From: Camellia lanceoleosa
Lineage: Eukaryota; Streptophyta; Magnoliopsida; Ericales; Theaceae
Assembly (NCBI GenBank): GCA_025200525.1
Contig: CM045770.1
Span: 125,403,429-125,467,428, forward strand
DNA length: 64,000 nucleotides
Direction: 5' to 3'
This document shows positions 994 through 64,000 of the stretch, piece after piece. The position numbers and the translations under genes were made by a program. Numbering within the stretch: the stretch's first letter is position 1; each line of letters starts with the position of its first letter. The notes under the pieces are model-generated. The model saw only the letters and a program-made list of their open reading frames with translations. It did no database searches and was not told the origin of the DNA.

Positions 994-995
994 TC

Positions 996-19673: not shown

Positions 19674-19694
19674 GCCAGATGACAGCTATTTAAC

Positions 19695-20420: not shown

Positions 20421-20486
20421 ATGTGATACCTCCTCCTGAATTTGCCTTCAGGTTTTCATTTGATCAGTGACACTTCCTATCACTTG

Positions 20487-22145: not shown

Positions 22146-22400
22146 AGAGAACCTCCCCCTTCCTCCTCTAGGTTCAGATTTTCTTGCTTGAGCTATACAT
22201 ATACACCTTTGTCTCTATATTGCTCTTGTTCTTCATTTTTGTGTTCAAAAGTGTTATTTCTTCATACTTTAACACACAAACACACACTCAAACACCTTAC
22301 TCTTGTTGCTGAGGCTTCTTAAGGTTGGTTTTAGAGTTTTTGGACTGGTTTTGGTCAGAAAAACTTGCTGGAGTTATAGCTTCAAAAGTGTTCTTCAAGG

Positions 22401-24837: not shown

Positions 24838-24864
24838 CAAAGTGAAAAAATGCAGCAACAACTG

Positions 24865-24965
24865 TCGGTCAGCCAGAAAAACTAGCTGGCCGACCACTTT
24901 TTCTGGTTTGCAACAAAGAAAAGTGGTCGGCAGGTGGTCTCCCACATCAACAATTGGTCGACCAC
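24865..24965 (+). repeat. Downstream GGCCGACCACTT module array of S1
   Basis: CTGGCCGACCACTTTTTCTG and related words directly after the presumed acceptor, matching the U3 array of the same LTR. Confidence 0.7.
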
Positions 24966-26439
24966 CCTCCTATAGGTCCCCAAGATGAGTTAGAAGCTAT
25001 CTGGAGCTTGGTGCAAATGTCTGAGAGCAGTTGCAAGCAGAGGGAAATTGGGGCATCGCGTTGGATTTCTGAACGAGGCGACCGGGAATGCATGCACCCT
25101 TCTCCCTTTGAGGACATTGTTTTACTGCTTTACTTCGCTAATGTGCTTAGCTAGTTTATGCTTTGGATTCTGTACTTAAGTAGTTAATGCGTTTAGTTGC
25201 TTAATTGTGCTGTAATAGTTAGTTAACTAGGATTAGTTAATTAGCTTCGTTGTGTAATAATTAGTTTAATTAGCTTAGATTAGCTAGTTAGCTCTTTATT
25301 CGGACCCTTCGTCGAGAGGGCCAACTGTTGTAATAAGCGTACGTGTGTGTGATGCAAGTCTTCTAACCCCCATTTCTTTCTCCCTTTTACTTAACCGCTT
25401 ACGATGGTTAGTTTTATGGCATATTTTATTTAGCATACCTTATGCTTCGCATGCGTGCATTCATTCATCTGTATTGCATGTCCCGGGCTCAGCGCATCAT
25501 ACTAACTGCATAGTATTTCAATACGCTTACTTGAATACGTGTGTAGACACCCAATTTTTTACCGACCTTAAGACTCAGACGTCACCGATTGAGCGCTCGG
25601 TGATGTTGCATATTGTGCTCGTTCAGAAGTCTCAGAGTCTCGGCCGTGAGCCCTGCCTCCGGACTTCTGAACCCTTTTCTGTACTTTGCCTCGGTTCGCG
25701 AACCAGGCTCGGTTTTCTCTATTTTTGTTTCTGAGGGGAGGGAGGTCGTAGACCATCTCGATGGCCGTGGGCTACTTTTAGTGGCCGTAGGCCATTTTGC
25801 CCATTTCGGAGCCCGGTTCCCGGTTTTCGGAGCCGTCAGGCCATGTGCCTCGGTTCGGGACCGCCTAACCATCTCTGATTGCTCTGATTTTTGGCATGCA
25901 TCTTATTTGCTTCCTTTTGAGGGACACTGGGGTCTGAGGGACCGACTTCGTGGTCGAACACCACTCCCGATGCCCAACAGCCTATTTTCAGGACCCCGAA
26001 CTGCGTGTTTTGGCCCCCGAGCCTTCATTTTGCATCGGCTTGGGCTCATTTTTGGTGGAGGCCTTATTTTCATGGTTAGGAAGCTTGTAGGAGGGTGGGA
26101 GGCCAGCAATTTTTTTGACAAACAACTTTTTGTTTGGTCAAAAGTGGTTCAGCATGAATCCGGGAAGGAGAAAAGTCTGCGCGGCTTCACCGAAACGGGC
26201 GTAACTCTTTGCACAAGAGGAATTAAAATATGAGGCCACCACCATTGGAAAGCTTACTTTCGGGGCTTCATTTTGCACTTAAGAATCTCCTAAGTCCAAA
26301 TCTGGGGGGAGGAGATATGGTTGGTTGAAGTCTGGTTAGACCGAATCTGCGCGGCTTTACGAAAACTGGCATAACTTTTTCTACAGGAGGAATTTTAATG
26401 CAAGGTTTGCGGCATTGGAAAGCTAACTTCAAGGGCTAC

Positions 26440-31148: not shown

Positions 31149-31523
31149 TTATTGTGGGGCATGAGTTTGTTTGCCCAATTGGCATGGCGCGTACATGTGG
31201 TTCAAAGACTTACTCAATTTTGGCACTCCTCGTGCAAGTTCCTTATTGGCGATCTTATTTAGGTCTTTGAAATTGATGTGACCTAACCATTGATGCCATA
31301 CGTCAAGATTTCTTATGATGGCAAAATGGCAAGTAAGATCACTGGTTGTGACAATACCATGGCAATTGTTAGATGTGCATACACCATGCAACACGATATT
31401 TCCATTTTGTTCCAAAATCTCGCATTTATCTTTTGAAAATAATACCTCATGGTGTGGGTCACACATTTGACTAATTCTCAAAAGATTAGCCTTAAGACCA
31501 TCAACAAGCAACACACTATCCAA
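31149..31523 (-). pseudogene. copia GAG-pre-integrase region
   Basis: Links protease and integrase in the polyprotein. Seen: LLVDGLKANLLRISQMCDP, then DVWHQWLGHINFKDLNKIAN, carrying the H...H part of the zinc-binding HHCC motif, and MYAPCQLGKQTHAP, carrying the C end. The frame ends in a stop before the integrase core, so the polyprotein is broken here. Confidence 0.85.
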
Positions 31524-31740
31524 TTTTGGTAGACTAGGAGCACTTATAGAGCACTTACCAATGATTCTAGAGGTGTTTCTATCTCCAAAAGTGACAATTC
31601 ATCCTTCATAATTTTCAAGGGATGTGAAGTAGGACTTGTCACCGAACATGTGATGAGAGCAACCACTATCAAGATACCATATATGTGAAGCAGTGTGAAC
31701 AACAAACATGACAAGTCACTTTTTCTTACCCACACTCGTT
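31524..31740 (-). pseudogene. copia aspartic protease
   Basis: Would cleave the Gag-Pol polyprotein. Reading the minus strand in the right frame gives WYLDSGCSHHMFGDKSYF, with the catalytic DSG at 31670-31662, followed by a stop after ENYEG and then VTFGDRNTSRIIGKC. The stop inactivates it. Confidence 0.75.
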
Positions 31741-32089
31741 TAGTCTTGACTAGAGAGGGATCATCATGATTCTTGGGTGATGTCTTGGCGTTGTGAGTAT
31801 CATTGTGAGCCGTGGTATTCCACCTTGATATGTAGGGTTGTTTCCTAACCCACGAGGTATTAGGATTTCTTCTACCTCTTTGAGACACCCTACCAAACAA
31901 CTCAAAACAGTAAGGATGAATGTGACTGTACCTACCACAATGATGACAAATAAAAATAGGTTTTACCTCCTTTTCACAATTCATACCAACTTTGGGTTGA
32001 TGTTGAAAATTGTCAACAGGTTGCACCTTTTCTTTTCCCTTTCCTTGAGTCCTTTTGTCATGAGATGAAGAGGCACTCCCATGTTGCGA
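31741..32089 (-). pseudogene. copia zinc-binding linker
   Basis: FICHHCGRYSHIHPYCFEL gives a CX2CX4HX4C-type nucleic-acid-binding motif. The surrounding sequence is basic (RRNPNTSWVRKQ). Such a motif between coiled coil and protease is typical of SIRE-like copia. Confidence 0.7.
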
Positions 32090-32563
32090 TTAGTTACCAC
32101 CATAGCTAATCCCACTCTTATCTGAACTCATTTGTTGAGACCCAATGGTATCTTCCAACATCTTTGATCCTTTGTTCCATAGATCAATTTTCTCATTTGT
32201 ACTCTTGAGTTCTTCTTCTTTTTCTTTGACAAGTTCCTCCAAAGCTACTTGAGATATCTCGAGAGTCTCGAGAGTTTCAATCTTTTCTTCATAGGTTACA
32301 TAGATTTTCTGAAGTTCATTTCTCTCAGTCTCACACATCAATAGTTTTGTGACAAGGGCTTTTCCAGCACTAGAGATTGCGGACACCTCCTTCTTTAATT
32401 TGACGTTCTCACTTTCACAGGTTTTGAGTTTGACAGTGAGTTTGTCGTTTAACTTAGACAAGTTAAAATATTTTGTGTACAAGTTTTCATTCACTTGTTG
32501 GAGCTCTTCACCATCTATTTCATCTTCACTCTCAGAAGATTCATCATTAGTAGCACCATTCAC
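32090..32563 (-). pseudogene. copia gag coiled-coil region
   Basis: About 157 residues of charged heptad-like sequence (VNENLYTKYFNLSKLNDKL, ETERNELQKIYVTYEEKIET, EELVKEKEEELKSTNEKIDL), preceded by an acidic start. It is expected to self-associate in the capsid. Ends in a stop. Confidence 0.75.
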
Positions 32564-32639
32564 AGATAAAACAACATCCTCCCTTCGGTTCTCTCACTCT
32601 TTGAGTCCATCCAGCCGAGCGACTGGAACATGAAGTCTA

Positions 32640-33010
32640 GAGGAACTAGATGCTTGTGAAGATGATTCTGCCCTTTCATGGACTTGCATTAACATGTCCC
32701 AAGCATCTTTAGCATTAATGCAATGAGAGATGCATTGTTATTCTTCTTCAAAAAGAGCTTCCCTGATGGTGTTCAAGATGCGTTCACTACTTTCCATATC
32801 AACTCTTTCACTTTCACTCCACTCTTCTATAAGCTTGATGGATTTTTGATTTGTGATTGGATCAATCACAAATGGAGCTTCAATATTTTCTTCAATTGTT
32901 TACCAACTTCTAGATCCCAAGCTCTAAGGAATACCCTCGTTATGCATTTCCACAATAAATAGTTACTCCTATCAAAAGTGGGAGCACGATGGAGATTGGC
33001 ACCTCGAACA
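32640..33010 (-). pseudogene. Second copia gag-like module
   Basis: Minus strand reads ANLHRAPTFDRSNYLLWKC, a second N-terminal gag signature, then (after frameshifts) SERILNTIREALFEEE and INAKDAWDMLMQVHER, which match the UBN2-type block also present in the first gag. So two gag-like modules follow each other, both broken here. Confidence 0.55.
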
Positions 33011-33171
33011 AACTAAATAGGCCTAGGAGTATATTGAGGAACACGGGAATAAAATGCCATGAATGTACGCTCACCATCTTCTCTGGAGTTTGCTTCATCG
33101 GCTTGTTGCTCAAATTCACTCTCATCATCCTAAGTCCCAGTGTACACTTTTTTTTTTTTTTTTTTTCTTGG

Positions 33172-33300
33172 AAGGACATTCGAGAGCCATATGCCCAAAC
33201 CCTTGGTTTTCATAACATTTGACTCCCTGTCCTCTCATTATCTTCTTCTCGGGTTTTGAAACAAATTTGAGTTTAACATTACCCTTATCCTTAGAACTAG
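33172..33300 (-). pseudogene. copia gag zinc knuckle
   Basis: GVKCYENQGFGHMALECP resembles the CCHC knuckle CX2CX4HX4C, with the second Cys replaced by Asn. It lies between the two gag-like modules. Confidence 0.65.
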
Positions 33301-33444
33301 ATTTTTTTGAAAGTAGGCTTCTTTTTCTTAAAATATTTTTTGAATTGTTTTGTAAATAAAACCGTCAATTTCAAAGTCTAGATCAATTACAGCTTTAGGA
33401 TTCCTTGCAACCTCATGAGTACTAGAAACGACCACAATTTCTTT

Positions 33445-34098
33445 TTATTTTTTCTTTGAAATCAGGTTTGCCTCAAAGGTTTGCAGGTTTCCAACCAATT
33501 GATCAAGTTTGAGGTTATCAACATCTTGAGCCTCCTCTATAGCCGTCACTTTTGATTGAAATCTATCGGGTAAAGATCTCAAAATTTTGCCAACAACACG
33601 AGATTCAGGGATTTTTTCACCAAGCGTGAAACAGGAATTCACAATATCACTGAGTTTAGCATAAAATTCATCAAACGTTTCATCCTCAAGCATAAAAAGG
33701 GTTTCAAAAGCAGAGGTGAAACGTTGAAATTTTGATCTTTTAACAAAAGTGGTACCCTCGTGAATCGTTTCAAGAATATCCCAAGCCTCTTTTGCCAACT
33801 CACAAGTACAAATACGACGAAACTCTTCTGGGGTGATGAAGCAAAAGAGGGAATCGAGAACTTTACTGTTACAGCTCGAGTTTTGATAATCAATTGTATC
33901 CCATTTATTAATTGGTTTGGAAATTTCAACACCTTCAACAATCAAAACCGATTGACTCCACCCATAGATAACAGAATGCCAAACTTTCTCATCAATAGAT
34001 TTTAAAAAAGTCCTCATATGAGCTTTCCAATATGAGTAGTTTGTTTCGTCAAGTAAAGGAGGTCTATGGGTTGAGTTACCTTCGCGAATTGAATCCAT
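33445..34098 (-). CDS. gag: copia gag, UBN2-type (217 aa frame)
   Basis: Capsid protein of the copia element. Starts MDSIREGNSTHRPPLLDETN and continues with YSYWKAHMRTFLKSIDEKVW, then LFCFITPEEFRRICTCELAK and EAWDILETIHEG, EDETFDEFYAKLSDIVNSCF and ILRSLPDRFQSKVTAIEEA, the usual order of the UBN2 family. The frame is open for 217 codons. The start is supported by the PBS 60 bp upstream. The element around it is dead, so this is a surviving open fragment. Confidence 0.85.
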   Translation of the reverse strand: MDSIREGNSTHRPPLLDETNYSYWKAHMRTFLKSIDEKVWHSVIYGWSQSVLIVEGVEISKPINKWDTIDYQNSSCNSKVLDSLFCFITPEEFRRICTCELAKEAWDILETIHEGTTFVKRSKFQRFTSAFETLFMLEDETFDEFYAKLSDIVNSCFTLGEKIPESRVVGKILRSLPDRFQSKVTAIEEAQDVDNLKLDQLVGNLQTFEANLISKKK

Positions 34099-34160
34099 AA
34101 ATACAAATCACACAAAATCACATTCCTATAGCTTTGAAAATAATCAAAGAACGAGTGACC

Positions 34161-47317: not shown

Positions 47318-47794
47318 GGCTGATTTGGGTATGGTTCACAGGGTGTGTGATAATCAAATTCAACATTTAAAATTAGTGATAATCAATTATATTATTTTGT
47401 TATCACTTAAAAATTTAAGTGCTTCTTAAAATGTAGGTTAAAATTTAAGAAAAAATTGAAATCATATTTGAACTTCCTTAATTCTAATTGAATTTATAAA
47501 TATTAAATATAAGTATCAATATACATTATTACAAATTCACCATCACCAACTCCGAAGTGGGCTCTCTCTCTCCACTCTATGATGGGCCGAGCTAAGGGAT
47601 CAGTCTTGGCCCACTCCCCACTTCGAAGAGGGGAAGACCATGGGCCTGGCTATAGCACCACTCCCCACTCCAAAGCGGGTAAATCCATAAAATGGGATCC
47701 AAGGCTCCCACTCAACGACAACATGAGTGCTAACAGATCAGTCAATACTTTGTAAAGTAAAAAGCATGTGGTGTCCGCGAATGACGGATCTTGC
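47318..47794. other. Spacer before element C
   Basis: No gene. Contains repeated CCACTCCCCACT and GAAG(C/T)GGG words near 47560-47690. Confidence 0.5.
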
Positions 47795-47878
47795 TGTAGA
47801 CACCCCATTTTTGACCGTCCTCAAGACTTGGATGTCACCGTTTGAACACCCGGTGATTATCCATGTTCGTGTTCGTTT
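47795..47878 (+). repeat. LTR stub of element C
   Basis: First 84 bp of the LTR (matches 48625-48708), then a jump at GTTCGTTTG to internal sequence matching 63030 onward. Confidence 0.85.
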
Positions 47879-48624
47879 GCATTGTAGTGTAATTATTGCA
47901 TCCAGCATTAGGATCATTATTCTTTCCTCAGCGGGTCGTCACCCCACTCATGTCAATCCACCCAATACTTGTTCTTGTGTCCGTCTACATCACTCATAGT
48001 TCAGACATCGTTCTATGGTAGACGGACTCGTTACTTCCATCAATCTATTTGACATTTGTGTGGTTTTGAATCGCTCACGGTTGAATCATGATTCAATTGC
48101 TTTGCATGTAGTTTGCATAGTTTCAATTGCATTGCATTATCATTTGCATTGTTTATACTTAGTTTTGTATATAATGCACATCATTTTGCATTCATCATTG
48201 CATTGACATGCATATGACTAACAATATTGTACCTGTTAAGTTTGCTTTCTTTGCAGGCACAATATTGTATGTACGGCTCATTTGAGGTCGGTGCAACCGG
48301 ACGAGCCGCACAGGTATTGTATCCTCCGCGTGAGACGTTTCGAGAATTGCATAATTCTCTTACATCCTTTCTGCATTGTAGTGTAGATTGGTGTATGCTA
48401 GCTTATAACTGTTGCATGTGTGCTTCATTACAGCTTCCTTTGCATGATCATAAGTTATGCTCGGCCTTTTGCATCGTCTGTTGCATTTTGCCCCGCGCAA
48501 GATACCTTATTTGTCTTGCATGTTTGTCTAAGTCTTCAGCCTTGTCAAAAATGGGTCATCTCTGGGCTTTGACATTCACTCCCGTCATTGTTATGACTTC
48601 CGAGTTCTGTCAAAGAGGGGCAAC
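47879..48624 (+). other. Duplicated 3' internal end of element C
   Basis: About 98 percent identical by eye to 63030-63775. Ends in the polypurine tract AAAGAGGGG (48612-48620) four bases before the next LTR. No gene. Confidence 0.85.
48612..48620 (+). other. Polypurine tract before the middle LTR
   Basis: AAAGAGGGG followed by CAAC and the LTR start TGTAGACACC. Confidence 0.8.
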
Positions 48625-48849
48625 TGTAGACACCCCATTTTTGATGGTCCTCAAGACTTGGACGTCACCGTTTGAACACCCGGTGATTATCCATGTTCGT
48701 GTTCGTTTGGAGTTCCCGGAGTTCTCGGCTACGCGCCTTGCCTCAGGACCTCCGAACTTGACCGTTTTGTGTCTGGTTTTGCACCAAATACTTGTGTTTT
48801 GCCTTGGAGGGGCAGGGAATGCCTTTTGAGGCATCCCCACACACCACCG

Positions 48850-48970
48850 GCAGTGGCTAGAGGCCACCGGCTGGTTGATGTTGCCATCGGCACTATATTG
48901 TGCCGGTCGGCACTATTTTGTGCTGGTCGGCAGTCAATTTTGTCAAAATGACAATTTTGCCCTGCCGACT
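48850..48970 (+). repeat. U3 GTGCCGGTCGGCA module array of element C
   Basis: Words CACCGGC, GGCACTATATTGTGCC and GTGCCGGTCGGCAC. Nearly the same words stand upstream of the antisense gene (60940-61030) and after the acceptor (50985-51105). Confidence 0.75.
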
Positions 48971-49025
48971 ACTGTGCAGTTGCTTTATGAGATATTTTAA
49001 GGCAGCTGTCTTGCATTGGTTTCCT

Positions 49026-49092
49026 CTCCATACACGTGTATGGAGGGATGAGCTTCTTGGTGGCTTAACTTGTAAGCTTTGTTGCCTATAAC
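49026..49092 (+). promoter_or_regulatory. Putative promoter of element C LTR
   Basis: CTCCATACACGTGTATGGAG (49026-49045), a perfect 20-bp palindrome with a G-box core, then TATAAC at 49087-49092, about 42 bp on. Confidence 0.6.
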
Positions 49093-49379
49093 ATAACTCT
49101 TCCTCCTCTTGGCTCAAGGGTTGAAAGGGTGAGACATTTTTAGAGAGAAAAGACAGAGAAGAAGCTCTGGTTCTAGGTTAGAAGTTTTGTATCTATCCTA
49201 TCTCTCTTCTTCCCTCTTATTTGTACACTAGGTGTTTGTGACTTACTATTGCTCATCAACACCTAGTGTTTCACCTTCTCTAGGTTTTTGAGGGTCCAGA
49301 GGTTTGTTCTTGGTGCCTTGGAGTTGGATTCAAGCAAAGGAAAGCAACAACACCAACATTGTTGAAGAGGTCTTCAAGG

Positions 49380-50976
49380 GTAACAAAACTAGCCTTTTAT
49401 TCCCCATTTTTGCATCTTATTTTTACCTGTCTTAAAGCTGTTTTTGTGCTTAGTGCTTAATACAAAAAAAGTTCTGTTTTTAGGCCCTCTTGATAGTTTA
49501 TTAAGAGTGTTTGGTGGTTTGGGTAGGTTTGACCACCCTTAGGCCTTGAAAAGGGCCTCATTTTGTGCTATTTTGTTGAGATCCGGGATTCTGGTGTTTG
49601 GGTCTCTTCACCACTGAAATCTTGAGGGATTTCAATGGTGAAGATGATGCCTTAAAGTCCCAAGAAGGAGGGGGGTCACCCCCTCTCCTTGATGTCCTTG
49701 AAAAGGGCAAGTTTTGCCTCTTGAGGGAGCATTGTGCTTGAGTGTGTGTTGAGCATGTATGGACTGTTATTCATGCTTATTATATCATGATTTAACGTTG
49801 CTATGTGTTGGTTTTGGTCCCTTATGCATGCTTAGCATAGTTGCCATGTAATGCCTTGTATTGCCTTAACATGCCTTGGGTTGTTAGCCTTTGTTTGAGC
49901 ATGATTTAGGCTTAGATTCGTGAATGTTTTGTGCTTATTTTGACATGTTTTAGCTCTGTCCATAGTCATTTGGGTTGATCTTGGCATGCATTATATAGCC
50001 CCTTTGCACTTTAGGCTTGCTAGCCTTTGAGCATGCATGTGTAGCATGTGTTGCTTACTTCATTTTGATGGTTTGGAATCATCTAGCATGTCATTTCAGT
50101 CCCTTTGGTGTGCTTGTATGCTTGCCTTAGTTGCCTCTTTAATGCTTTTAAAAGCATGTATTGAATGCTCCATGTTTTGGTCATTGTGCATGCCTTTGGA
50201 TTCATGCCATTTAGATGCCATCTAAGTGGTCTTTTAGGCTTAGTTTTATGTGTTAAAACTCTGTTTTTAATTGGTTAAGTGTTACCATGTGTGGTTGTAA
50301 TATGTGTGGTTCAATGCCTCATTGGTTTGCCTTAAGTACTTGGGCCACTTGTTGCATGCTTAACCTACTTTGTTGCTTGGTTTAGCATCATATCTTGCAT
50401 GATTTTAGAGCTCATGTTGCATGCTAATCACCCATGCTATCTCCTTTCAAGTGTGCTTGAGAGTGGTTTGTTTAATGCTTAAGTTGTATGCCTTAACATG
50501 TGTACATGTGCATGTGTGTTTAGCTCTCATGCTTAGCATTTTGGCTACTGATTTTGGGGCCATTTGGGATGGCCTAAGTCATGTTTAAGCCCACCCCATT
50601 GTTTGGTTTACATGTTTGTCTTGTAGGTGTGTTTGCATATTAACATCCTTACATTACATTGCCCATATTGCATACTAGCCAACATGCTTAGGATTTCATT
50701 GCATTCACATGCATGCTAGGCCTCTTGAGACAAACATGATAGAGGTTTGGCACCCTTGCTTTGTTTGTTTGCATTGCATGCATTTGAAATTGAAAGTGCA
50801 CATTTGGTTCCTTGGGCCATCATGCATGGGAATGCGTGATTGGTGGCCCGAGAATCGAGGCACATGTCCATTTGAGTCACAAATATGATAAGGGGCATGA
50901 TTGGTGCATACATTGTTGGAATTACATTGCCATGCAAGTTTTTGCCTTCTGCTACTGTGAGTTGTAGGTTCTGCAG
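49380..50976 (+). other. Putative intron inside the element C LTR
   Basis: Donor TCTTCAAGG|GTAACA at 49380, acceptor AGGTTCTGCAG ending 50976. Same place as in A, S1 and R, though the acceptor string is less alike. Confidence 0.45.
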
Positions 50977-50984
50977 ACATTTAG

Positions 50985-51105
50985 TGCCGGCCGGCAGTGT
51001 TTAGTGCCGACCGGTAGTCTATAGATAGCCGATGGATGAATTTTGTGCCGGTGACCACATACTTCAGCCGGTGGCATTTCCCTTCGGCCGGTGATATTCC
51101 CCAGT
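50985..51105 (+). repeat. Downstream module array of element C
   Basis: GTGCCGGCCGGCAGTGTTT, GTGCCGACCGG and GGCCGGTGATATTCC words, directly after the presumed acceptor, matching the U3 array. Confidence 0.7.
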
Positions 51106-52396
51106 GCCTTGAGAAGTGGTTCTGAGACTTTGGCAGTCTTCTGAGGTGCAAAGCAGGGAAAACAGAGGCAGGCTAGGCATGGCAGTGCAATTTCGAGCGG
51201 AATCCAAGCACACGTCCATTGAGCCCTCGCCCCGAGGCGGTTTACTGCTTTTCTTAGATTAATTATTTTGTTAATTTAATTAATTTGTAATATTTAATTA
51301 ACTTGCGTAGTTAATTAATTTGTATTATTCTTTTGGTCCCCCCGAGCGAGGGCGTATTTGTAATAAGTGTGTGTGAGTGGGTATATGTCTTCCAACCCCA
51401 CGTCTTTCTTCCCTTTTACTTACCTGCTTTTAATGGTTAGTATTAGGGCACGTTTATTTTAGCATACCTTATGCTATGCATGCGTGCATCCATGCATTTG
51501 TTGACATGCATCGGGCTCGGTACATCATACAAACTGCATTGTATTTTTAATTCCAAATTGAATACGTGCATCGAATAAAGTACATTTCACGTGCCATGTT
51601 TAGGGTTAGCCGAGCCTATCCTAGTCACATTCTGTATGTGATGCATTAGTCACTTAACATGAACTAGGACATGCATGTTTGCTAACTAGTTTATTGTTTT
51701 GGCACGGAGTACAATGTAAGTATTTATGCTTTAGCATATCGCATGCGTGTGAATGTTAACATGGTAGTAGGCTTGCCATGCGGCTAGTTGCTTACATGGG
51801 ATAAACTGTTTGAATGCCTGTGGGTGGAGGTTGGGTTGTTTGAGTTGGAAAATTCATTGAAATCCGTGTTTTAGCCTACTTGCGAGTAGCAAATTCCAAA
51901 GCATTTTCAAAACCAACGGATATGCAATGCTTGTTTCCAAATTAGGCGATCTAGTCTATACTTGTTTGCTGTGCGCATAACATAGTAATTCTAGGCTAAT
52001 AACTGGAATAAGAACGCATAAAGTTTTCAAAACCGGATATCACGGTTAGTAGAGGCCGGTCTTCGGACCGGGCGAAAGGGGGTGCTCATAGCTGACCTTC
52101 CCCGATCGTACCCAAGCTCTCGAGCCAAGACCACTTTGGTGATGACGGACATGTGGCCTTCGGCACCGAGTCAGGGTTTCCTAAATTTCCCATTTTAAAT
52201 ATTTAGGTGGCGACTCTGTAATCTGGCAAAGCAGTCCATGTTTGGCACTACTTTTCAAAAAATCTGTTTTTCTTCAAAACGATTTGCCGGATTTGGACTC
52301 TTTGGTTCAGATGTAGAATCGACACAAATTGAGTCCGAACTGTAGTGACCCAATATGAGCAGGCAGGACTTAACCCTCCCGGCGTTCGGGGGCGTC

Positions 52397-53082: not shown

Positions 53083-54080
53083 ATGACGCAGAACTCAGAA
53101 GAGATCGTGGTCATGACGGCCGCGTTGAGTCAAGGAATCACCCTACAAGGTAAGGCTAACATTGATCTGCCACATCCACCTAGGTCGCCTGCCGCGCATC
53201 CAATCTGGACTCCTCAATTATATTAGGCTCGCGAACCCACCACATTTGAACTAATGGGAATGATAGGTGATCTTCAAAGATCCGTGGCGGATCTCGCCTA
53301 TGGAATGTCTGTTTCGCCACCAGTTGCACCATATGCCGGAGGCTTTGTACCCCAAGAGCCCCCGCTACTGGGACGAATTGTAATTGAACTCAACCAACCG
53401 GAGATGGCCTCCAGCTATGGCAACGACGCATCGAACCAAGTTCTAGATCAGGCCGAGGCTAGAGACAAAGGCAAGATGAAGGCAGATGCCGACCCCATCG
53501 AACAACTGCTGTGGGCAGTCGAGGCTTTGAAAGCCGGGGGAATGAACAAGCAACAGATATCCGCAGTTACGTCAAAAGCTGTGGAGGATGCTTTCCCCAC
53601 TCCGCCTGAGGGCAATTCCAGTCAATCGGAGAACCGGGATGGGCCCCGTCATGCCAAAACAGTTCTTCCCGCTCCCAACCTCGCATCCGGGAAGGATCAG
53701 AAATCCAAGGCCGCACCTGCCGATCCGTTCGCTAGTGCATCTAGCAAGAGTGCTCAGACTCCAAAGTACCTGCCCCGAGGGCGCAGGGTCTTCCATGCTC
53801 TCTACATGCCATTATCCAAGGCGCTTCAAATCCTTGCCGAGAGGGGACACCTTAAACCCTTGGAGCCTCGGCCTCTCCCGAAGAATCTCCCTGCCACACA
53901 TGATCTCGCTTCAGATCAGGCGTACCACCGCCAGACCGCCATGCTACCGACAATTGTTTCTACCTCCGGCATGAGGTGCAAGATTTGATTGACAACGAGG
54001 TTATTCTCCCGTCTACCTCAGCAAAGTCCGTCACCACTCAGTTGTTGGATTCTGAGGATACAGATACTGCAAGTATGTAA
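53083..54080 (+). pseudogene. gag: gag of element C, core deleted
   Basis: N-terminal frame from ATG near 53083 (MTQNSEEIVVMTAALSQGIT) runs to a stop at 53226. From 53254 a 244-codon frame carries LMGMIGDLQRSVADLAYGMS, an acidic linker and the C-terminal block YMPLSKALQILAERGHLKPL, also found in element A. The central gag domain seen in A (2177-2587) is missing, apparently without loss of frame. A one-base loss near 53936 breaks the zinc motif; beyond it the right frame reads NCFYLRHEVQDLIDNEVILP up to a stop at 54080. Such a protein could not form a normal capsid. Confidence 0.8.
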
Positions 54081-55852: not shown

Positions 55853-57227
55853 TCCGATCCGAGGTTGCGCATCTCGAGGGTAGGTTCCATGCTCGTCAAG
55901 CATCGACTGCTTGCAAAAATAGTTTTTGAAAATTTTCACTGAGGTCGACTTATTTTCTCGAAAACTATTTTATTTTCAAAATTGGACCATGTTTGGACCC
56001 CAAAAAGGAGAATTTTCAGTGCTCGCAGCCTGATTCACATGATTTTCAAATCAAAAATTGAATAAGTGTGTTAATCCACTCTCATTTTTTATCAAAACTT
56101 TTTTAGGAAGAAAACAAAAAATGGTCAAAGTGACGAACTAGGGGCACAATTGAGTCAGGTCTTCTGTCTTTCCCCCGTCAACACACTTGCCCGAGAGGCA
56201 CCCTGTCTACCAGAAGAAGTGGCTGCGAGCTAGCTGTACCGGGCATGAACCCGCAACCTCTCATTTACCCGACAACCATGCCTGGGGAGGGATTGAAAAA
56301 TAAGAGAATAAAGAATAGGGAGGAGTAAGATGAGAGAAAAGTGAGAAAAGGGTTTTGAGAGAAAAACCGAGCTTGAGGGCCGAGTGATGTGAGTATCGCA
56401 AATCGGAAAGGGTGGGAATAATACCCGGAGGAACTTGCCCCTCGAGATCTGAGGTCTTTGTAAACACGTCAGTGTGTCGTGTCTTCTGATTTGTCGGTCT
56501 TGCTTTTGGCTTCGAGTCTTTTCCGAGCATATCTCGTTATGTCAGGTCGTGTGCCTTTGTTTCTTTGTTTGAGTTTGTCTTGTCGTGTCCTGTGGTAGGC
56601 TCGATACCCCGGTCGTGAAACCCATCCTCTTCCAAAAAGTAATCGCTTGTGCTCTGAATGCTGTGCCATTCTCTACATTTGTGTGAGGCATGAGAAGGAA
56701 AGGGATGATTTGGGACATCCGGATGTGTTTCAATTATAACTATTTCTGCTCTTCTGGTCCGTCTTGTCAGATTGGGTTGTAGGTTCAGAATTTGTTGTAT
56801 GCCGAATGGGCCGAATCTCGCCGCGTTATGATGCATCAATCCCCAGCAGATTAGTCCCCAGCAGAGTATGGGCTGTGTATCCAGTTTTGAGCAGTGGTTC
56901 GTATGTGTTGTGTTGCTGTTTAGTCGGTTGGTTATCTGATTATTACAGTGCAAGTGTTCAATTGTTAGACAACAAATCATTTTCATTTACATTTGAGGTG
57001 TAACATGATGCAATGCAGTGCAAAGTATGAAATATGCAGATATATACAAATGTAACACTTTTTTTTAGACAAAAAGTTCGTTCCATTTCATATCATCTCT
57101 TTCAAAGTACATAGTTTTGGGAACAAAAACCTGCCTGTGGCAGTACAAAGTACTCTATCTACCAAAGAAGAGAAAAGTACAAGAAAAGAAATAAAAGAAA
57201 TGGCAAAAGTCTGGGTCATCAGCATCA
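55853..57227 (+). other. Internal region between hairpins and antisense gene
   Basis: Matches 4850-5885 of element A up to about 56660, then C-specific sequence. No gene of known type. Confidence 0.55.
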
Positions 57228-57478
57228 TCAATGGCCTCGCGCCGGGGGATCTGTCCTCGCTCTCTTCTTGGGCAGAAGTCCAGGAGCATCACCAGAAGTG
57301 TCACTGTCTGAGCCCGAGTCGGCCTCCTCCTCGGACTCCACCGTCCTCGAACCGGAGCCCGCAGCCGCTCCCGGCGAAATCGCCTCCTCCGGTGTGCGGG
57401 GAATATCCTGCCATCCCGAGTAGAAATAGAAGGTTCAGATGGAGCGCCACCACCCACTGGAGGAATCGGGAAGGGAGG
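57228..57478 (-). pseudogene. PMD gene exon 6: acidic tail with nuclear signal
   Basis: Acceptor GTACTTTTCAG. Starts PPFPIPPVGGGAPSEPSIST, then a one-base frameshift. The next frame reads DIPRTPEEAISPGAAAGS, SRTVESEEEADSGSDSDTSG, DAPGLLPKKRARTDPPARGH and a stop at 57228. The acidic stretch and LPKKRART suggest a nuclear protein. The uncorrected frame is arginine-rich and less likely. Confidence 0.7.
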
Positions 57479-57550
57479 CTGAAAAGTACAAAAGACAAAT
57501 GCATCAAGACATGAAGCGTTTATCGGTGAGAATCGCAGGTGTATGAATAC

Positions 57551-57697
57551 GAGTATGAATGTCGTGAGCGCTTTATCAAGACAGTAATGCAGCAGTACAG
57601 TACGAGTATGAATGCCGTGAGCGCTTTATCGCATCGTAATGCAGCAGTATGAGTCTGAGTATGAATGCCGTGAGCGCTTTATCGTAATGCAAGCAGT
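57551..57697. repeat. 53-bp tandem repeat (3 copies) in intron 5
   Basis: GAGTATGAATG(C/T)CGTGAGC recurs at 57551, 57604 and 57657, within the last intron of the antisense gene. Confidence 0.85.
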
Positions 57698-57811
57698 GTA
57701 TGAATACAGTGTGTCAAGCGCTGTGAGGGCTGGGTATCCAGTGTTGTATCATGCATCAGATTATGCGAAGCAGTTTGTGTATGGTTCGAAGCTATGTCAG
57801 AGGGAACATAC

Positions 57812-57910
57812 CGGAAGGCCGTAAAAGGCTAGGAACTCGAAGGTCCGCTGCAACATCCCCGCCATGGAGGCATTCAGCTCCAATGACTGCCGGGTGTACT
57901 CAGAAGAAGC
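57812..57910 (-). CDS. PMD gene exon 5 (33 codons)
   Basis: Acceptor TTTTTGCAG, donor CTTCCG|GTATG. Reads ASSEYTRQSLELNASMAGML and QRTFEFLAFYGLP. Helical and without known catalytic residues. The intact frame and clean borders support the gene model. Confidence 0.75.
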
Positions 57911-57997
57911 CTGCAAAAATATCAGATGCATCAATATTTTGTGGAATACCAAATAAACCGAAATGAAATAACTGTATAGAAATGCAGTAATACATAC

Positions 57998-58512
57998 CGG
58001 AGATAAGTCGGGGACACTGACGAACTCGTGATCAGCTGGCGGAGGGGCGAAGGGAATCTGATAGGTGGCCCTATCCGACCCTCGGAAAGACAGTGAAGTA
58101 GGCAAAGCGGGCCAGCTAGCCTCCCGTCCTCTCTAGACTCCGCCCTTGCCGCGGACTCGAGCCCTCCTCGGCGCTCCTCCTACTCGCCTCGCCGCCGGCG
58201 CCGCAGTCTTCTCTCTCTGGCGACCACCACTCAACGGCCGCATGATGAAGGTCCGGACGTACTCTGAGTAATCGCCCTCGCCTCTTAAGCTCGCCCCAAC
58301 CGATGGTGTAGTCCACCATCTCGCCACGGTGAACGCCGGTCCTCATATGCTCGGAGGGTGCACCGACTATCTCGCCAGTAAGCCCAGGTTTGACGCAAGA
58401 AGCGCCACCAGTACCAAGCCCGGCCTCTAGCAAAATCCGTAACGCGAGGTCTCAACGGCGCCGCAAACCGATCCCGCACTATCGCCGCGAGGAGCCCAAG
58501 GTCGCCAGTGAT
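57998..58512 (-). pseudogene. PMD gene exon 4 (frameshifted)
   Basis: Starts ITGDLGLLAAIVRDRFAAPL in one frame. Sections in the other frames (EHMRTGVHRGEMVDYTIGWG, GDYSEYVRTFIMRPLSGG) follow, and it ends PPPADHEFVSVPDLSP before donor CTCCG|GTATG. At least two frameshifts. The block YVRTFIMRPL fits the end of PMD domains. Confidence 0.65.
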
Positions 58513-58600
58513 CTCAAATTGAAATACGCTTTGTTACCATCGGGTATTGCAAATATCTGATGGAAAAGCGAAGCTTAAATGAACTGCAAGTAAAACATAC

Positions 58601-58762
58601 CTCGGCGGGGGTGATGGTGTCAAAGTAACGGCGGAAGAAGCTGAAAGTCTCCCGCGGCCTCCGGGTGCACCTCCCATCGTAGCGACGCGAGAAGGGAATA
58701 AATAGAGGAGTCTCCGTCTCCGGCACTGGCTCCAATCTGGGGAAGTAGGCGTAAACCCACAA
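58601..58762 (-). CDS. PMD gene exon 3 (54 codons)
   Basis: Acceptor CACCTTGTAG, donor GCCGAG|GTATG. Reads LWVYAYFPRLEPVPETETPL, then FIPFSRRYDGRCTRRPRETF and SFFRRYFDTITPAE. The aromatic W-Y-FP motif is the usual continuation of the plant mobile domain. Confidence 0.82.
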
Positions 58763-58998
58763 CTACAAGGTGGATATCAGAATGTTTATCAGATAAAGCA
58801 GAATGTAGAATAAAGTAGAAATAACAAAGCCGTGTGTTGTGCAGTGTATTGAGTAGAGTGTACAGTGTGAGTAGTGTACAACGGTGTAAATCGCAGTATG
58901 TGTGTGCAGTGTACAAGATACAAGCAAAGCAAAAGACTACGCAGTGTGCAGTGCGAATTACGAAAGTATAGAGCGTAAATGTAAAGCGAAAAGGAAAC

Positions 58999-59632
58999 CT
59001 CCTAAGCTCGCCAAGAGCCTCCGAGCAATCGCTACCACGGAGAGACCGAGCTCATATACCCGAAAAGGGTGGCCAGAGCCGCACCACCCCAGTCATAGCA
59101 CAAGATGTCCCGGACGTCCACCGGTCTGGCCGAGTAGGCAGAGAGCACGGTGTTCGCCTCGGGCGAAGAGGGTCGCCCCTAGCAAAAACATCAAAAACAG
59201 CGCTTGCACGGCCGCCTCGGTCATCGGAGCCGCCGCCACCAACGCAGGCTGCACTCTGAATTGCACCTCAAACCAGGAATAGCAGACAAAGCCTGGACGA
59301 GCAAGAGGTGGCGCCTCGCCAAGCAAATAGATCTGGGCGGCGGTCCACTCGTCCATATCGGTGTCGAAGGGGATCGGATCACCCCCTACCCCGATGCCGG
59401 TGAGCACCGAGAAATCGTAGGGAGTCATCGTCATGTCTCCCGCGGATAGGTGAAATGAATCGGTGTCCCACCACCTCGCTAGGGCTAGGAGAGGCTCGCA
59501 GCGATAAGTCGGTCGCACCGCAAAGGAACCAAATCCCGCCTCGTCCACGATGCGTCGAACCGCCTCGGGAAGCTCCAAATACCAATCTCGAGCCGCGACG
59601 TTCCCATACCCGCGGATGGTATAGGAGTCTCC
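58999..59632 (-). CDS. PMD gene exon 2: core plant mobile domain
   Basis: Acceptor TGAAAACAG. Reads GDSYTIRGYGNVAARDWYLE, then LLALARWWDTDSFHLSAGDM and TMTPYDFSVLTGIGVGGDPI. The WW-TFHL-GEMT-TP-DF-LTG order is the signature of the domain (PF10536 type). The frame is open for about 160 codons; then a one-base frameshift near 59140, after which DVRDILCYDWGGAALATLFG matches the W-G-A-LA-L part of the domain. The donor is placed at 58998 with less certainty. Confidence 0.85.
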
Positions 59633-59734
59633 CTGTTTTCAAACAAATGGTTGCAAAGCAATATGAAATGTACAGTTCTGAGGAAACATGTTAAAATCAA
59701 TACAAATCTAGCATGCGTGCAAGTTTTTCATATT

Positions 59735-60200
59735 CAAACAGATACCGGGTGCTGGTGCACCTACGGTGGACTACAGTGTTTGATGCGTCATCGTGTTTTG
59801 AGTAAGTGCAATGTAAACATGGTGCACGTGTGCACATTTTTCAGATCTAAGTAGATATCAGGTTTCAGTGTACTACGGTGGACTACGGCCTGTGATGTGT
59901 CAGTGTGTTTGTGAGGATCAGCATACAGATATGGTGCATGTGTGCACGTCGTTTTTAGATTCAAACAGATATCGGGTTATAGTGTGTCAGTAGGTGAACT
60001 ACAACGTATGATGCGTCAGCGTGTTTTGTGTGGTTTAGTTTAAATACAGCATACAATATGTTTTCAGATTCAAATAAGTGCCGGGAGTCGGTAGGTTTGC
60101 AGTGAAGTACGGTGTGTACCGTGTGTTTCGGTGATTGAGACTAGTGCAGTGTGTGTGCATGTGTCCGTCTTAAACAGATATCCGTTGTAAGCATGATTGC
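59735..60200. repeat. Tandem repeat of about 115 bp in intron 1
   Basis: Four imperfect units marked by CGGTGGACTAC and CAGATATCGGG words inside the first intron of the antisense gene (59633-60308). Confidence 0.75.
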
Positions 60201-60308
60201 GATTAACTACAGTGTACAGCATATCAGAGCTAAGCAGTTAAAGAACAGATTCAGCTATGGCAGGTAACAGTTCTACATTGCAGAAAGTAAAACAGAAAAA
60301 GATGTTAC

Positions 60309-60536
60309 CTCGGAAGCGCCGAAGGATAGGTGAGAGGTCGGCTCGCGCAGGAGAAGCTCCGGGTCCAGTGCTCGATCAAAGCCGCGGAAATGGCGAAGAC
60401 CATCCGGAGGTAGGACGTGGATCGCCGGGCGGTAGGTCGCTGGGTCGAAGGGACGCTCGCTCAACGGGAGGAGCTCGACCCCGGGATCCATCTTGTGATC
60501 CGGGGGAGTCCCGATGTGTGGAATATCGTCAGCCAT
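60309..60536 (-). CDS. PMD gene exon 1 (76 codons, start)
   Basis: ATG at 60536 in a good context. Reads MADDIPHIGTPPDHKMDPGV, then ELLPLSERPFDPATYRPAIH and FDRALDPELLLREPTSHLSF, ending GASE before donor CCGAG|GTAAC. Proline- and acid-rich N-terminus. Chosen as the start because the frame upstream runs into leader-like CT-rich sequence. Confidence 0.75.
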
Positions 60537-60859
60537 GGCAATGGTGGCGAGAAAATAGTCGGAAAAGCCGGAATGTGAAAAGTCAACCGAAAAAGTCAAC
60601 CCCGAGCGGGCCGAAAATGACCGGGAAGGCCGGAAAATGAAAAGGCACGGAAATGAAGAGAAGATCGAGGGGAACAAGTCCCGAAAAGTGGAAATAGCAA
60701 AGGATGCTCCGAAACGGAATTTCGATCGGTGGAAAATGTCCGAAACGCGAAGAAAATCGCGAATCCGACGACGAAACGGACGTAGAACGCGAAGAAAACA
60801 AGGAAATGAGAAGAGAAGAAGCTCTAGAGAGAGAGGGCAAGAGTTTTCAGCGGTGGAGA

Positions 60860-61040
60860 AGTAAAGAAATAGGGTTAGAAACCCTATTTTTAAAAGACCC
60901 GTGGTGAAATGGCAGAACTGCCCCCGATCAGGTATTTTTGTCCGGTCGGCACTATTTTGTGCCGGTCGGCACAATATTGTGCCGGTGGAGTTATTTTGCA
61001 GCCGGTGGCCAGCCGGTGGCTTTCTCTTCCAGCCGGTGGT
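60860..61040 (-). promoter_or_regulatory. Putative promoter of the antisense PMD gene, LTR-U3-like
   Basis: On the minus strand, palindromic modules (GGCACAATATTGTGCC, GTGCCGACCGGCAC, CCACCGGCTGG) at 60940-61030 are followed by a TTTTAAAAAT box (about 60890) and a CT-rich leader up to the ATG. The modules are the same as in U3 of the element's LTR (48850-48970). Confidence 0.5.
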
Positions 61041-61375
61041 GTTTCCACAACCTTGTTTAGGCCATGAGAGCAGTTTTGGGTCTTCATAACTCAAGAAAGT
61101 GCAAGAAAGTGCATCCCTGATGCTCAACCGGTCTCCGTTTTGACCTCGGACCGTGTCTTCTGTGCGTGGCACTCAAGTTCAAGCAGATATTGTATCCTTT
61201 TGTATCCTTTGGTCTTTTACAAGATTCAAAAGTTGCCCCGTGTGCGTTGCACGCATCCATCACATTGTCCGGTGCGTTGCATCGCGCCATCTTGCACGCC
61301 CCTTGCGACTTGCACCATCTTGCATTTTCGTGTGGCATGCGTGTCATACTTGCATTTCATTTTCTATTCAATGAG

Positions 61376-61915
61376 GTACGTGTGCCTCATTTTGCATTTC
61401 CATTGCATCTTGAGGTACGCGTGCCTCATTTTGCATTTCATTTTCCATTCAATGAGGTACGTGTGCCTAATTTTGCATTTCCATTGCATCTCGAGGTACG
61501 CGTGCCTCGTTTTGCATTTCATTTTCCATTCAATGAGGTACGTGTGCCTCATTTTGCATTTTATTTTCCATTCAATGAGGTACGTGTGCCTCATTTTGCA
61601 TTTCCATTGCATCTTGAGGTACACGTGCCTCGTTTTGCATTTCATTTTCCATTCAATGAGGTACGTGTGCCTCATCTTGCATTTCCATTCAATGAGGTAC
61701 GTGTGCCTCATTTTGCATTTCCATTGCATCTTGAGGTACGCGTGCCTCGTTTTGCATTTCATTTTCCATTCAATGAGGTACGTGTGCCTCATCTTGCATT
61801 TCCATTCAATGAGGTACGTGTGCCTCATTTTGCATTTCATTTTCCATTCAATGAGGTACGTGTGCCTCATTTTGCATTTCCGTTGCATCTCGAGGTACAC
61901 GTGCCTCATCTTGCA
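61376..61915 (+). repeat. 81-bp satellite of element C with GAGGTACGYGTGCCTC units
   Basis: Units of 42 plus 39 bp, about seven repeats, each with GAGGTACGTGTGCCTC or GAGGTACGCGTGCCTC (nearly palindromic). The period is a multiple of three, so several frames stay open. Confidence 0.9.
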
Positions 61916-62282
61916 TTTGGCACGCATTCCATCGCGCTATTTTGCGCACCTCATTGTTGTCCACGGGTCTGGCGAGACCTTAAACACGCACGGTCTAGGA
62001 GACCTTAAATCCTCGGAAGATGCAAGACCTTCGTTGCTTCGGTACACGCAATTCATGCACTGTCATGCATTCGTAAAGCCGTGCGTTGCCGCGCATTTCA
62101 AATTCATGCATTGTCATGCATCCAAAAGTCGCGCGTTGGCGCGCATTTCAAAAAACAAACATGCATTGTCATGCATTGCATCCCGGTCTAGGAGACCTTA
62201 AATCCTCTAAAGGTGCAATTCCTTCGGGGTTTGTCGTGCCCGAACGACTTTCGGTGGTCTGGTAAAGCCACCAGCCTGTGTT
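61916..62282 (+). other. Internal spacer, element C
   Basis: Contains repeated GTCTAGGAGACCTTAAATCC and CATGCATTGTCATGCA words. No gene. Confidence 0.6.
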
Positions 62283-62530
62283 TGCAGTGAGTTCCTAGGA
62301 GACCAATGGGGACGGTGAAAACTAGAGTTCGAATGGCTTATGCCTAGAACGCAAAGGTTCGGAATTTTCGAGACTAAAGTCTGGTTTAAATACCCAGAGG
62401 GTGTACCCTCGGCTTGAAATCTGTATGGAAGCCCCATAGGTTGAGGCGGCATGTTTACGCCTCAATTCTGGATACTGAACCAACCTAGTATATCGCCCCG
62501 TTGGGAGAATAGGGAAAGCTGCAATCATAG
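62283..62530 (+). other. Conserved block shared with element A
   Basis: Matches 6226-6500. Nothing coding is recognised. Confidence 0.7.
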
Positions 62531-63775
62531 TTGTTGCATCATAGTGCATTGTCATGCATCATTTCTAAATATTGCATATGTCATGCATCATGCACATTTC
62601 AAAAAAAAAAAATCCAAAAAAAAAAAACATACATATGTCATGCATCATCGTATATACTGCATATATCATGCGCATTTCAAATCCAAAAAAAACAAAAAAA
62701 AAACCATGCATATGTCATGCATTTCATTGTAGTATAGTGCATATGTCATGCATTTTCTGTAAATATCCATTTCCATTGCATTTTAGTTGCATGCATCCAC
62801 TGCATCATCTTCCATCTATGGCTTACACCTTTCCTTGTTGAGCTTGGTCTGGTATGTGCCCTTACTTTTCACGTTGAAGCACAGTTCTACATGTATATCG
62901 CGCCTACTCCACGCTGGTATGTTGGATTGAGGTTGCGGCACCTTTTCTGTGTTAGACATGGTTTGTATGTGCGCATGCCTTTCCTAAGCGAGATACGGTT
63001 TGGCCCGCGCACCATAATCGCATATTGCATTGTAGTGTAATTAATACATCCAGCATTAGGATCATTATTCTTTCCTCAGCGGGTCGTCACCCCACTCATG
63101 TCAATCCACCCAATACTTGTTCTTGTGTCCGTCTACATCACTCATAGTTCAGACATCGTTCTATGGTAGACGGACTCGTTACTTCCATCAATCTATTTGA
63201 CATTTGTGTGGTTTCGAATCGCTCACGGTTGAATCATGATTCAATTGCTTTGCATGTAGTTTGCATAGTTTCAATTGCATTGCATTATCATTTGCATTGT
63301 TTATACTTAGTTTTGTATATAATGCACATCATTTTGCATTCATCATTGCATTGACATGCATATGGCTAACAATATTGTACCTGTTAAGTTTGCTTTCTTT
63401 GCAGGCACGATATTGTATGTACGGCTCATTTGAGGCCGGTGCAACCGAACGAGCCGCACAGGTATTGTATCCTCCGCGTGAGACGTTTCGAGAATTGCAT
63501 AATTCTCTTACATCCTTTCTGCATTGTAGTGTAGATTGGTGTATGCTAGCTTATAACTGTTGCATGTGTGCTTCATTACAGCTTCCTTTGCATGATCATA
63601 AGTTATGCTCGGCCTTTTGCATCGTCTGTTGCATTTTGCCCCTGCCTTCGGGCGCATACCTTATTTGTCTTGCATGTTTGTCTAAGTCTTCAGCCTTGTC
63701 AAAAATGGGTCGTCTCTGGGCTTTGACATTCACTCCCGTCATTGTTATGACTTCCGAAGTTCACAAAGAGGGCAA
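62531..63775 (+). other. 3' internal end of element C with polypurine tract
   Basis: Positions 62590-62760 repeat ATATGTCATGCAT with A-runs. From 63030 it equals 47879-48624. A decayed polypurine tract (ACAAAGAGGGCAA) lies at 63764-63775. Confidence 0.7.
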
Positions 63776-64000
63776 TCAGAGACACCCCATTTTTGATGGT
63801 CCTCAAGACTTGGACGTCACCGTTTGAACACCCGGTGATTATCCATGTTCGTGTTCGTTTGGAGTTCCCGGAGTTCTCGGCTACGCGCCTTGCCTCAGGA
63901 CCTCCGAACTTGACCGTTTTGTGTCTGGTTTTGCACCAAATACTTGTGTTTTGCCTTGGAGGGGCAGGGAATGCCTTTTGAGGCATCCCCACACACCACC
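63776..64000 (+). repeat. Right LTR of element C (first 225 bp)
   Basis: Starts CAGAGACACCCC (altered from TGTAGACACC) and then equals 48634-48848 with no visible difference. Continues beyond the window. Confidence 0.85.

Follow-up and report, generated by a model that had tools for sequence, protein, structure and literature searches.

A decayed member of an intron-bearing antisense gene family encoding the plant mobile domain in a Camellia retrotransposon

Results

An antisense gene with six exons

We analyzed a window of 64,000 nucleotides (the whole stretch of DNA studied here; C13:125403429-125467428 of the 3.0-Gb Camellia lanceoleosa assembly) that includes a long terminal repeat (LTR) retrotransposon, element C, carrying a gene for a plant mobile domain (PMD) protein on the strand opposite to that of the element. 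The copy of the gene in the window, at 57228-60536, is a pseudogene that no longer makes the PMD protein. The reading we favor, with reasonable though not full confidence, is that it is a decayed member of a family of retrotransposon antisense PMD genes that was once under selection, with a proposed role of the product as a trans-acting regulator.

On the minus strand, the open piece 59096-59632 scores 37 bits against PF10536.15, above the gathering cut-off of 34.9 (E 3e-9), which bears out the PMD assignment that an earlier, sequence-only reading of the window had made and had proposed to check against this profile; the corresponding scores of relatives are 96.7 bits for protein P0003 and 102.2 bits for P0039. 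Exon 1 and seven 3' pieces, each scanned separately, gave no Pfam match. A search of solved structures with exon 2 and a search of a plasmid collection also returned no match, and a structure prediction for P0001 (alignment A1) reached a mean predicted local distance difference test score (pLDDT) of 32.9.

Spliced alignment was run first with P0003, P0001, P0012 and P0011 and then with 45 Camellia proteins, 39 of which scored at least 600 and were used, the 6 that scored lower being dropped. The five introns are 676, 236, 88, 87 and 333 nt long, all GT-AG and all in phase 0, and introns 1 to 5 were recovered within 12 nt in 26 of 31, 30 of 39, 34 of 39, 23 of 35 and 16 of 25 spanning proteins, respectively. 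Because the script allows only GT-AG introns of at least 60 nt, the agreement with relatives concerns where the introns lie and in which phase; for the window copy, the GT and AG dinucleotides at the borders were read directly from the sequence. With P0003, P0001 and P0011, the script places the exon 3 donor at 58596, 4 nt off the phase-0 GT at 58600, and phase 0 at this donor is shared by all 30 same-genome relatives described below. The six exons with GT/AG borders proposed in the sequence-only reading are thus upheld by the 39 protein alignments and by recurrence in the relatives, and the predicted MADDIPHIG start and acidic, KKRAR-bearing tail are both present. The consistent phases that it described hold for the introns; inside the exons, however, there are three in-frame stops and several frame breaks, so that the copy does not spell out a PMD protein as had been claimed.

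Relatives in the same genome

A first protein search yielded 106 relatives, with every name from Camellia, and a second homolog search yielded 169 proteins; among the at least 120 listed, all named ones are from Camellia. In the same genome, a search with P0003 narrowed 44,916 first-look candidates to 61 that were scored, with 272 exon matches, and the best-scoring 30 loci among these 61 places constitute the relatives referred to throughout. Phase-0 introns occupy protein positions 76, 298, 352 and 513 in 26, 28, 30 and 28 of the 30 relatives, respectively, and position 546 in 10 of them, most of the others ending there. An apparent 81-nt 'intron' at protein position 487, seen in many copies, was rejected as a quirk of the annotated model P0003. 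Copies with intact frames, which the sequence-only reading had asked to be sought, do exist: exon 2 is without stop or break in 15 of the 30 relatives, and 2 are clean over the whole aligned part, which mostly excludes exon 6.

The dispersed copies have their element context in common. Eight of the 106 proteins (P0012, P0034, P0042, P0045, P0046, P0057, P0089 and P0095) match other parts of element C in antisense, two more match only LTR-like parts or parts resembling a sister element of the window (element A, described below), and one matches a copia-like stretch. Furthermore, for the gag-side flanks of three relatives (L055, L057 and L059, flanking L025, L026 and L028), the alignment with element C runs from the 3' part of the PMD gene to the LTR start at 48616-48625, with identities of 82.6% (one long piece), 75-81% (three pieces) and 78.2% (one piece), respectively. 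These flanks leave no room for pol and contain no capsid match, and all three that were read share the layout of element C. The gene is accordingly antisense, located in the 3' internal part and common to the family copies in the window and in all three relatives, as in the aORF-3R type of accessory frame. In L059, the C-terminal gag remnant is open over 208 codons (3113-3736) and likewise is without a capsid domain.

Protein-level constraint among the copies

Differences in exon 2 among the 30 copies amount to 9.4%, 7.4% and 30.7% at codon positions 1, 2 and 3, respectively. As judged from the aligned copies, this codon pattern is that of past constraint at the protein level in the family. 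Nei-Gojobori ratios of nonsynonymous to synonymous divergence (dN/dS; ratio of means) among the copies are 0.15, 0.13, 0.13 and 0.27 for exons 1 to 4; since the introns diverge less, dS is probably inflated, and the contrast between codon positions was therefore used as the main test. When the window copy is compared with the 30 copies, the exon 2 values are 20.1%, 19.3% and 41.0%. The window copy was not chosen by protein similarity and yet retains a third-position surplus of ~21 points, so that the surplus does not come from the choice of copies alone. The corresponding dN/dS values of the window copy against the others are 0.11, 0.23, 0.11 and 0.35 for exons 1 to 4. Between two protein subfamilies, the PMD exon is 63% identical and the other exons are 29-45% identical.

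The codon pattern bears on two alternatives. The first, which we consider rather unlikely, is that the antisense RNA itself is the selected feature, forming double-stranded RNA (dsRNA) with the sense RNA either for auto-regulation or as a trigger of host small interfering RNAs (siRNAs), with the PMD frame as a passenger. In tea, 21-nt phased siRNAs derive from PMD genes, with 175 PHAS loci and with most PMD genes barely expressed (PMC10673657), and dsRNA regulation by antisense accessory genes has been proposed in a review (PMC7264820); moreover, the window copy is broken and yet was moved. However, the third-position excess and the splice positions recurring in 30 copies indicate constraint on the protein, and selection at the RNA level would not spare codon positions 1 and 2. 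The second alternative, an unlikely one in our judgment, is a neutral passenger, that is, an old PMD frame inherited with the element, decaying everywhere and serving no present function. The stop or break present in 28 of the 30 relatives (aligned part) and the lack of the whole PMD stretch in element A are what such a passenger would leave behind, but exon 2 is clean in half of the same relatives, and constraint, although weaker, persists among the 25% of exon-2 pairs that have the lowest dS (dN/dS 0.24).

Decay of the window copy

Of the 39 protein alignments, 29 run into the in-frame stop at 59034, 30 into the one at 59004 and 30 into the one at 58135. Frame breaks appear repeatedly near 59160 and 58290 and over the stretch 58480-58380, and some alignments show them in exon 6 as well. 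Over all 39 proteins, the window copy needs 2-10 frame breaks: 7 each with P0001 and P0012, 9 with P0003 (8 of them before exon 6) and 10 with P0011. Its divergence from the 30 copies exceeds that among them by about 10-12 points at every codon position, an even surplus that, on the same alignments, is the mark of a lineage free of constraint, as in neutral decay.

That the frame breaks are assembly errors and the window copy is intact seems to us quite unlikely. Many of its differences from the relatives are short deletions, and small gaps are also frequent, and clustered, between the 5' and 3' LTRs of element C. Nevertheless, the thirty relatives from the same assembly require only 0-4 breaks against P0003 (covered part, mostly without exon 6; their selection by score favors few breaks), compared with 9 for the window copy, and excess substitutions at all three codon positions are not errors of insertion or deletion. 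The terminal branch of the window copy in the tree described below (0.24, against 0.05-0.07 for the nearest proteins) likewise argues against such errors. Because the LTRs of element C are only ~1.7% different, most of the decay appears to be older than the insertion, unless the LTRs have been homogenised; a copy already broken could thus still be mobilised.

Origin of the family

In a tree of 29 PMD rows (for want of the trimming motif, P0127 and P0079 were dropped from the 15 proteins chosen, and L007 was not included), the antisense family (13 proteins plus the piece from the window) comes out as a single clade, supported at 100/99 and with a stem of 1.21 changes per column. The remaining rows lie outside this clade: the five long host-type genes L001-L005, the loci L006 and L008, seven further multi-copy rows and L015. 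The tree program cautions about long branches meeting. We take L006 and L008 to be MAIL2-like, and the host group names PMD-B and PMD-C are likewise used here as we assume them to apply. Host genes of the MAIN/MAIL (PMD-C) type, as represented by L006 and L008, do not contain the antisense family within their group; in this tree, which is without published PMD-A1/A2 rows, the family stands apart from the sampled host and other multi-copy PMDs. That one element recently captured a host MAIN/MAIL gene is therefore very unlikely: host-type PMD genes (L001-L008) do occur in the same genome and annotation pipelines name many element-type copies MAIN-LIKE, but the sampled host genes lie outside a well-supported clade with a long stem, and the dispersed copies share an element context. 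By the same token, the description of the gene in the sequence-only reading as the element's own copy of a host gene is misleading.

A PF10536 profile search of the genome gave 25,021 first-look candidates. Other PMD genes of the genome (L009-L016) include several that are apparently split by introns, and seven of these eight group together in a separate clade. Flanking sequences from three of these loci (L019-L024) have almost nothing in common with the window.

Leader and candidate promoter

Upstream of the start codon, the antisense gene has a pyrimidine-rich leader, preceded by a TATA-like and telo-box-like block that constitutes a candidate core promoter. Of the 30 loci, 27 could be used in a promoter scan, the other 3 having no ATG at residue 1 or no 430 nt upstream. 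The telo-like AACCCTA/TAGGGTT motif was found in 25 of these 27 copies and a TATA-like motif in 24, nearly all of them 340-372 nt before the ATG, and in 26 copies the 350 nt preceding the start contain no ATG. As the motifs were chosen after viewing the window and the copies are related, this recurrence is not an independent test. The ATG-free leader was rejected as evidence from the window copy alone (P 0.31 against dinucleotide shuffles), and a consensus promoter scan, being of the bacterial type, was uninformative for a plant.

Structure of element C

The features of the gene and of element C are listed in Table 1. The LTR-start motif TGTAGACACCCC occurs at 47795 and 48625, and a diverged copy lies at 63776-63778. 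The termini of element C read TGTAGACACC...TACA and are flanked on both sides by CTTGC, as expected for the insertion of an LTR retrotransposon; since CTTGC stands before 47795 and after the end of the 3' LTR, the whole of element C was taken as a single insertion. The two LTRs differ at 4 of 447 and 15 of 668 compared sites, that is, at 19 of 1115 (~1.7%); when the second part is aligned globally over a longer stretch, 22 of 690 sites differ, since this alignment overruns the end of the LTR. About 2.6 kb of the 5' LTR is absent from the 3' LTR (L017, equivalent of window 64224-64226). At the left end (47795-48848), the stub, the 748-bp internal piece and a full LTR are enclosed within one target site duplication, an arrangement that is perhaps the remnant of a tandem LTR-internal-LTR-internal-LTR form that lost its middle.

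Table 1. Positions of the antisense PMD gene and of the parts of element C in the window
Feature	Position	Strand	Basis
Target site duplication, 5' copy (CTTGC, 5 bp)	47790..47794	.	same bases after the 3' LTR end in L017
82-bp LTR-start stub (TGTAGACACCCC), fused to a 748-bp 3' internal piece	47795..47876	+	exact motif, self-alignment
5' LTR of element C	48625..52396	+	start motif at 48625 after purine tract; alignment with 3' LTR
C-terminal gag remnant, 253-codon open frame without capsid domain	53227..53985	+
PMD gene, exon 6, acidic tail and basic KKRAR end, internal frame break	57231 (about)..57478	-
PMD gene, exon 5	57812..57910	-	spliced alignment
PMD gene, exon 4, several frame breaks, stop at 58135	57998..58512	-	spliced alignment
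PMD gene, exon 3	58601..58762	-	spliced alignment
PMD gene, exon 2, PMD core; stops at 59034 and 59004, frame break near 59160	58999..59632	-	PF10536 match, spliced alignment
PMD gene, exon 1, open, start MADDIPHIG	60309..60536	-	82% identical to P0001 over 82 residues
Pyrimidine-rich leader without ATG	60537..60866	-	ATG scan
TATA-like and telo-box-like palindrome, candidate antisense promoter core	60867..60894	-	recurrence in relatives
Tandem repeat array, spacings ~39-42 nt and multiples	61350..61965	+
Block common to elements C and A, 88.7% identity	62276..62521 (A: 6220-6463)	.
Polypurine tract	about 63758-63775	+	compared with 48610-48624
3' LTR start, running beyond the window to the equivalent of 64899	63776..64000	+	L017
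Target site duplication, 3' copy (CTTGC)	equivalent of 64900-64904, beyond the window		read in L017

No pol was found in element C, by Pfam scans of some open frames and by colinearity with the relatives. Neither ten further open frames of the element nor the gag remnant at 53227-53985 gave a Pfam match, the latter including no match to the capsid family PF03732. The placement of the gene in the sequence-only reading, antisense between gag and the polypurine tract, is correct; what had been called gag is a C-terminal remnant lacking PF03732. TR-GAG elements are non-autonomous LTR elements that combine a gag-domain frame with the absence of pol; element C does not belong with them, as its gag frame is without PF03732. 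A tRNA scan found no tRNA. Element C is an LTR retrotransposon with large LTRs and, by its general build, appears to be of the Tat/Ogre-like type. That lineage is marked by a second RNase H (aRH) placed between RH and INT in pol and by a primer binding site for tRNA-Arg; in element C, the 5' LTR is followed by TGG and then by a diverged stretch.

Element A (internal part about 987-8929) is a sister of element C, with 72-77% identity over three common middle segments. In agreement with the sequence-only reading, the PMD stretch is missing from it: by blastn, the equivalent of element C 56679-62276 is absent. The open gag capsid piece of element A (2063-2584) matches PF03732 with 31.1 bits; this piece has no match in element C, L055, L057 or L059, and only the second, C-terminal gag piece of element A matches the gag region of element C and of the relatives. 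No PMD core was seen in element A, and pol was looked for there only within the gag pieces. After its LTR, element A carries TGGCGACTC, which we take to be complementary to the end of a plant tRNA-Arg. The identity of the common block at 62276-62521 exceeds that of the other shared segments, and the block is retained in element A, which lacks the PMD stretch; protein model P0057 reads part of it in antisense, and P0012 reads the equivalent on the side of element A, also in antisense.

Elsewhere in the window, 13203-16675 and 22107-25351 form a long inverted repeat (76-80% identity) around a minus-strand region, inside which 19068-21242 presumably holds copia-like integrase and RNase H frames, as judged from their residues. 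Residues resembling gag and a zinc knuckle at 31152-34107 on the minus strand presumably belong to a second, broken copia-like element.

Discussion

Antisense introns are invisible to the splicing of genomic RNA and hence survive reverse transcription. The introns of the PMD gene would not be presented for splicing by the genomic (sense) RNA and so would be kept through copying via RNA. The gene would be transcribed towards gag from its own internal promoter, the TATA-like/telo-box-like block at about -370 to -340, and the transcript, once spliced in the nucleus, would encode a probably nuclear PMD protein whose tail is acidic and whose end is basic. Given that the capsid has been lost, that pol was not found and that the PMD is constrained, the job of this protein is unlikely to be copying, and control of expression or of host silencing fits best. 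Most likely, the product would regulate chromatin or transcription in trans, keeping the element family expressed by imitating the host MAIN/MAIL1-PP7L system, competing with it or diverting it; any role in silencing, including interference with MAIN/MAIL1, is an inference. The gag and pol functions would be supplied by other elements, and the window copy would have been mobilised by their products. In the host, PP7L is the partner of MAIN and MAIL1 in silencing and expression (PMC7156037).

Several points weigh against a once-selected family encoding a regulator. The 30 loci were picked as the best protein matches (61 of 44,916 scored), which biases dN/dS downwards. Intron divergence (Jukes-Cantor 0.18-0.31) is far below the Nei-Gojobori dS of 0.62 and the four-fold divergence of 0.42 (0.38 at CpG-free sites); with the introns as the yardstick, a dN of 0.082 gives a ratio of about 0.26-0.46, the neutral yardstick being uncertain. 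The surplus of the window copy is only 0.03-0.10 in introns, so that misalignment near the breaks may enlarge the surplus in exons. In subfamily A, exon 5 (90%) is better conserved than exon 2 (84%). At least one stop or break mars all but two of the 30 relatives, the gag-side flanks cover three relatives only, and the decay of the window copy speaks against a need for the PMD protein in cis. As to element C itself, the Tat/Ogre assignment rests on general build, and the absence of pol was judged from Pfam scans of some open frames and colinearity.

Taken further, the favored reading leads to a wider proposal that we put forward only tentatively, namely, that this is a capsid- and pol-less Camellia lineage whose sole constrained known gene is the antisense five-intron PMD gene, with its own promoter, acting as a trans anti-silencing or expression factor, and that the same transcripts are the unrecognised source of the phased siRNAs reported for 'PMD genes' in tea, as a counter-move of the host. 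The family thus offers a candidate origin for these siRNAs. That an antisense gene from a silencing-linked protein family is constrained, in a lineage without a capsid and in which pol was not found, makes a part in the copying machinery less likely and a part in the control of expression or silencing more likely. Our results also suggest that many Camellia 'MAIN-LIKE' annotations are transposon genes.

Several known systems resemble parts of this arrangement. As in TR-GAG elements, no pol was found in element C, but it is also without a capsid; the sister element A, which has PF03732 and in which no PMD was seen, comes nearer to TR-GAG. The antisense family and the host MAIN/MAIL1 genes, represented in our tree by rows that we take to be MAIL2-like, form separate clades. 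Host MAIN/MAIL1 (PMD-C) proteins belong to the same Pfam family and are a possible target or model of the element protein (PMC5418596, PMC7156037). PMD-C genes captured by MULE transposons offer another case of a mobile element with a PMD, for which the authors speculate on an anti-silencing use; it differs in that the carriers are DNA transposons, with transposase fusions, and the PMD is of host PMD-C origin (PMC5418596). HBZ of HTLV-1 is likewise an antisense nuclear regulator, with an unrelated protein and host (PMC11963269).

Closer in location are the antisense accessory genes known from several elements (PMC7264820, PMC11963269), which share with the gene of element C the antisense orientation and the 3' internal position (PMC11963269); the function of such genes in plant retrotransposons is described as not determined (PMC7264820). 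The antisense gene of maize Grande has its own upstream promoter and a nuclear product (PMC7264820, PMC11963269), and Retand elements have tandem repeats nearby, as does the gene of element C. The accessory products described in the passages concerned are GENE23, Transposase_28 (TRP28), SMC-domain proteins and a few others, mostly in pol-bearing elements (PMC11963269); among the antisense products named there, none is a PMD and none has a five-intron structure. In the open-access literature, as covered by titles, abstract openings and passages and short of subscription surveys such as that of Steinbauerova in 2011, we found no antisense intron-bearing PMD gene.

Closest in protein are the PMDs of Ty3/gypsy elements. 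PMD frames are present in 57% of the Ogre elements surveyed (PMC6317226), PMD-A1 and PMD-A2 are encoded exclusively by Gypsy elements (PMC5418596), and a further survey found PMD more often than any other unusual domain in Gypsy elements (PMC9289625). The gene of element C shares with the Ogre frames and the PMD-A clades a PF10536 protein in a Ty3/gypsy element (PMC6317226, PMC5418596). In contrast to the Ogre frames as described in that survey, it is antisense, is split by five introns and belongs to a lineage without a capsid in which pol was not found. Surveys of unsplit frames can overlook intron-bearing antisense genes; the Ogre survey sought getorf frames of at least 250 codons (PMC6317226), so that a gene split in this way would readily escape it. 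Both antisense accessory genes and the PMD frames of Ogre elements were already known; what is new is a pol-less lineage in which the only known domain under constraint belongs to an antisense PMD gene with introns.

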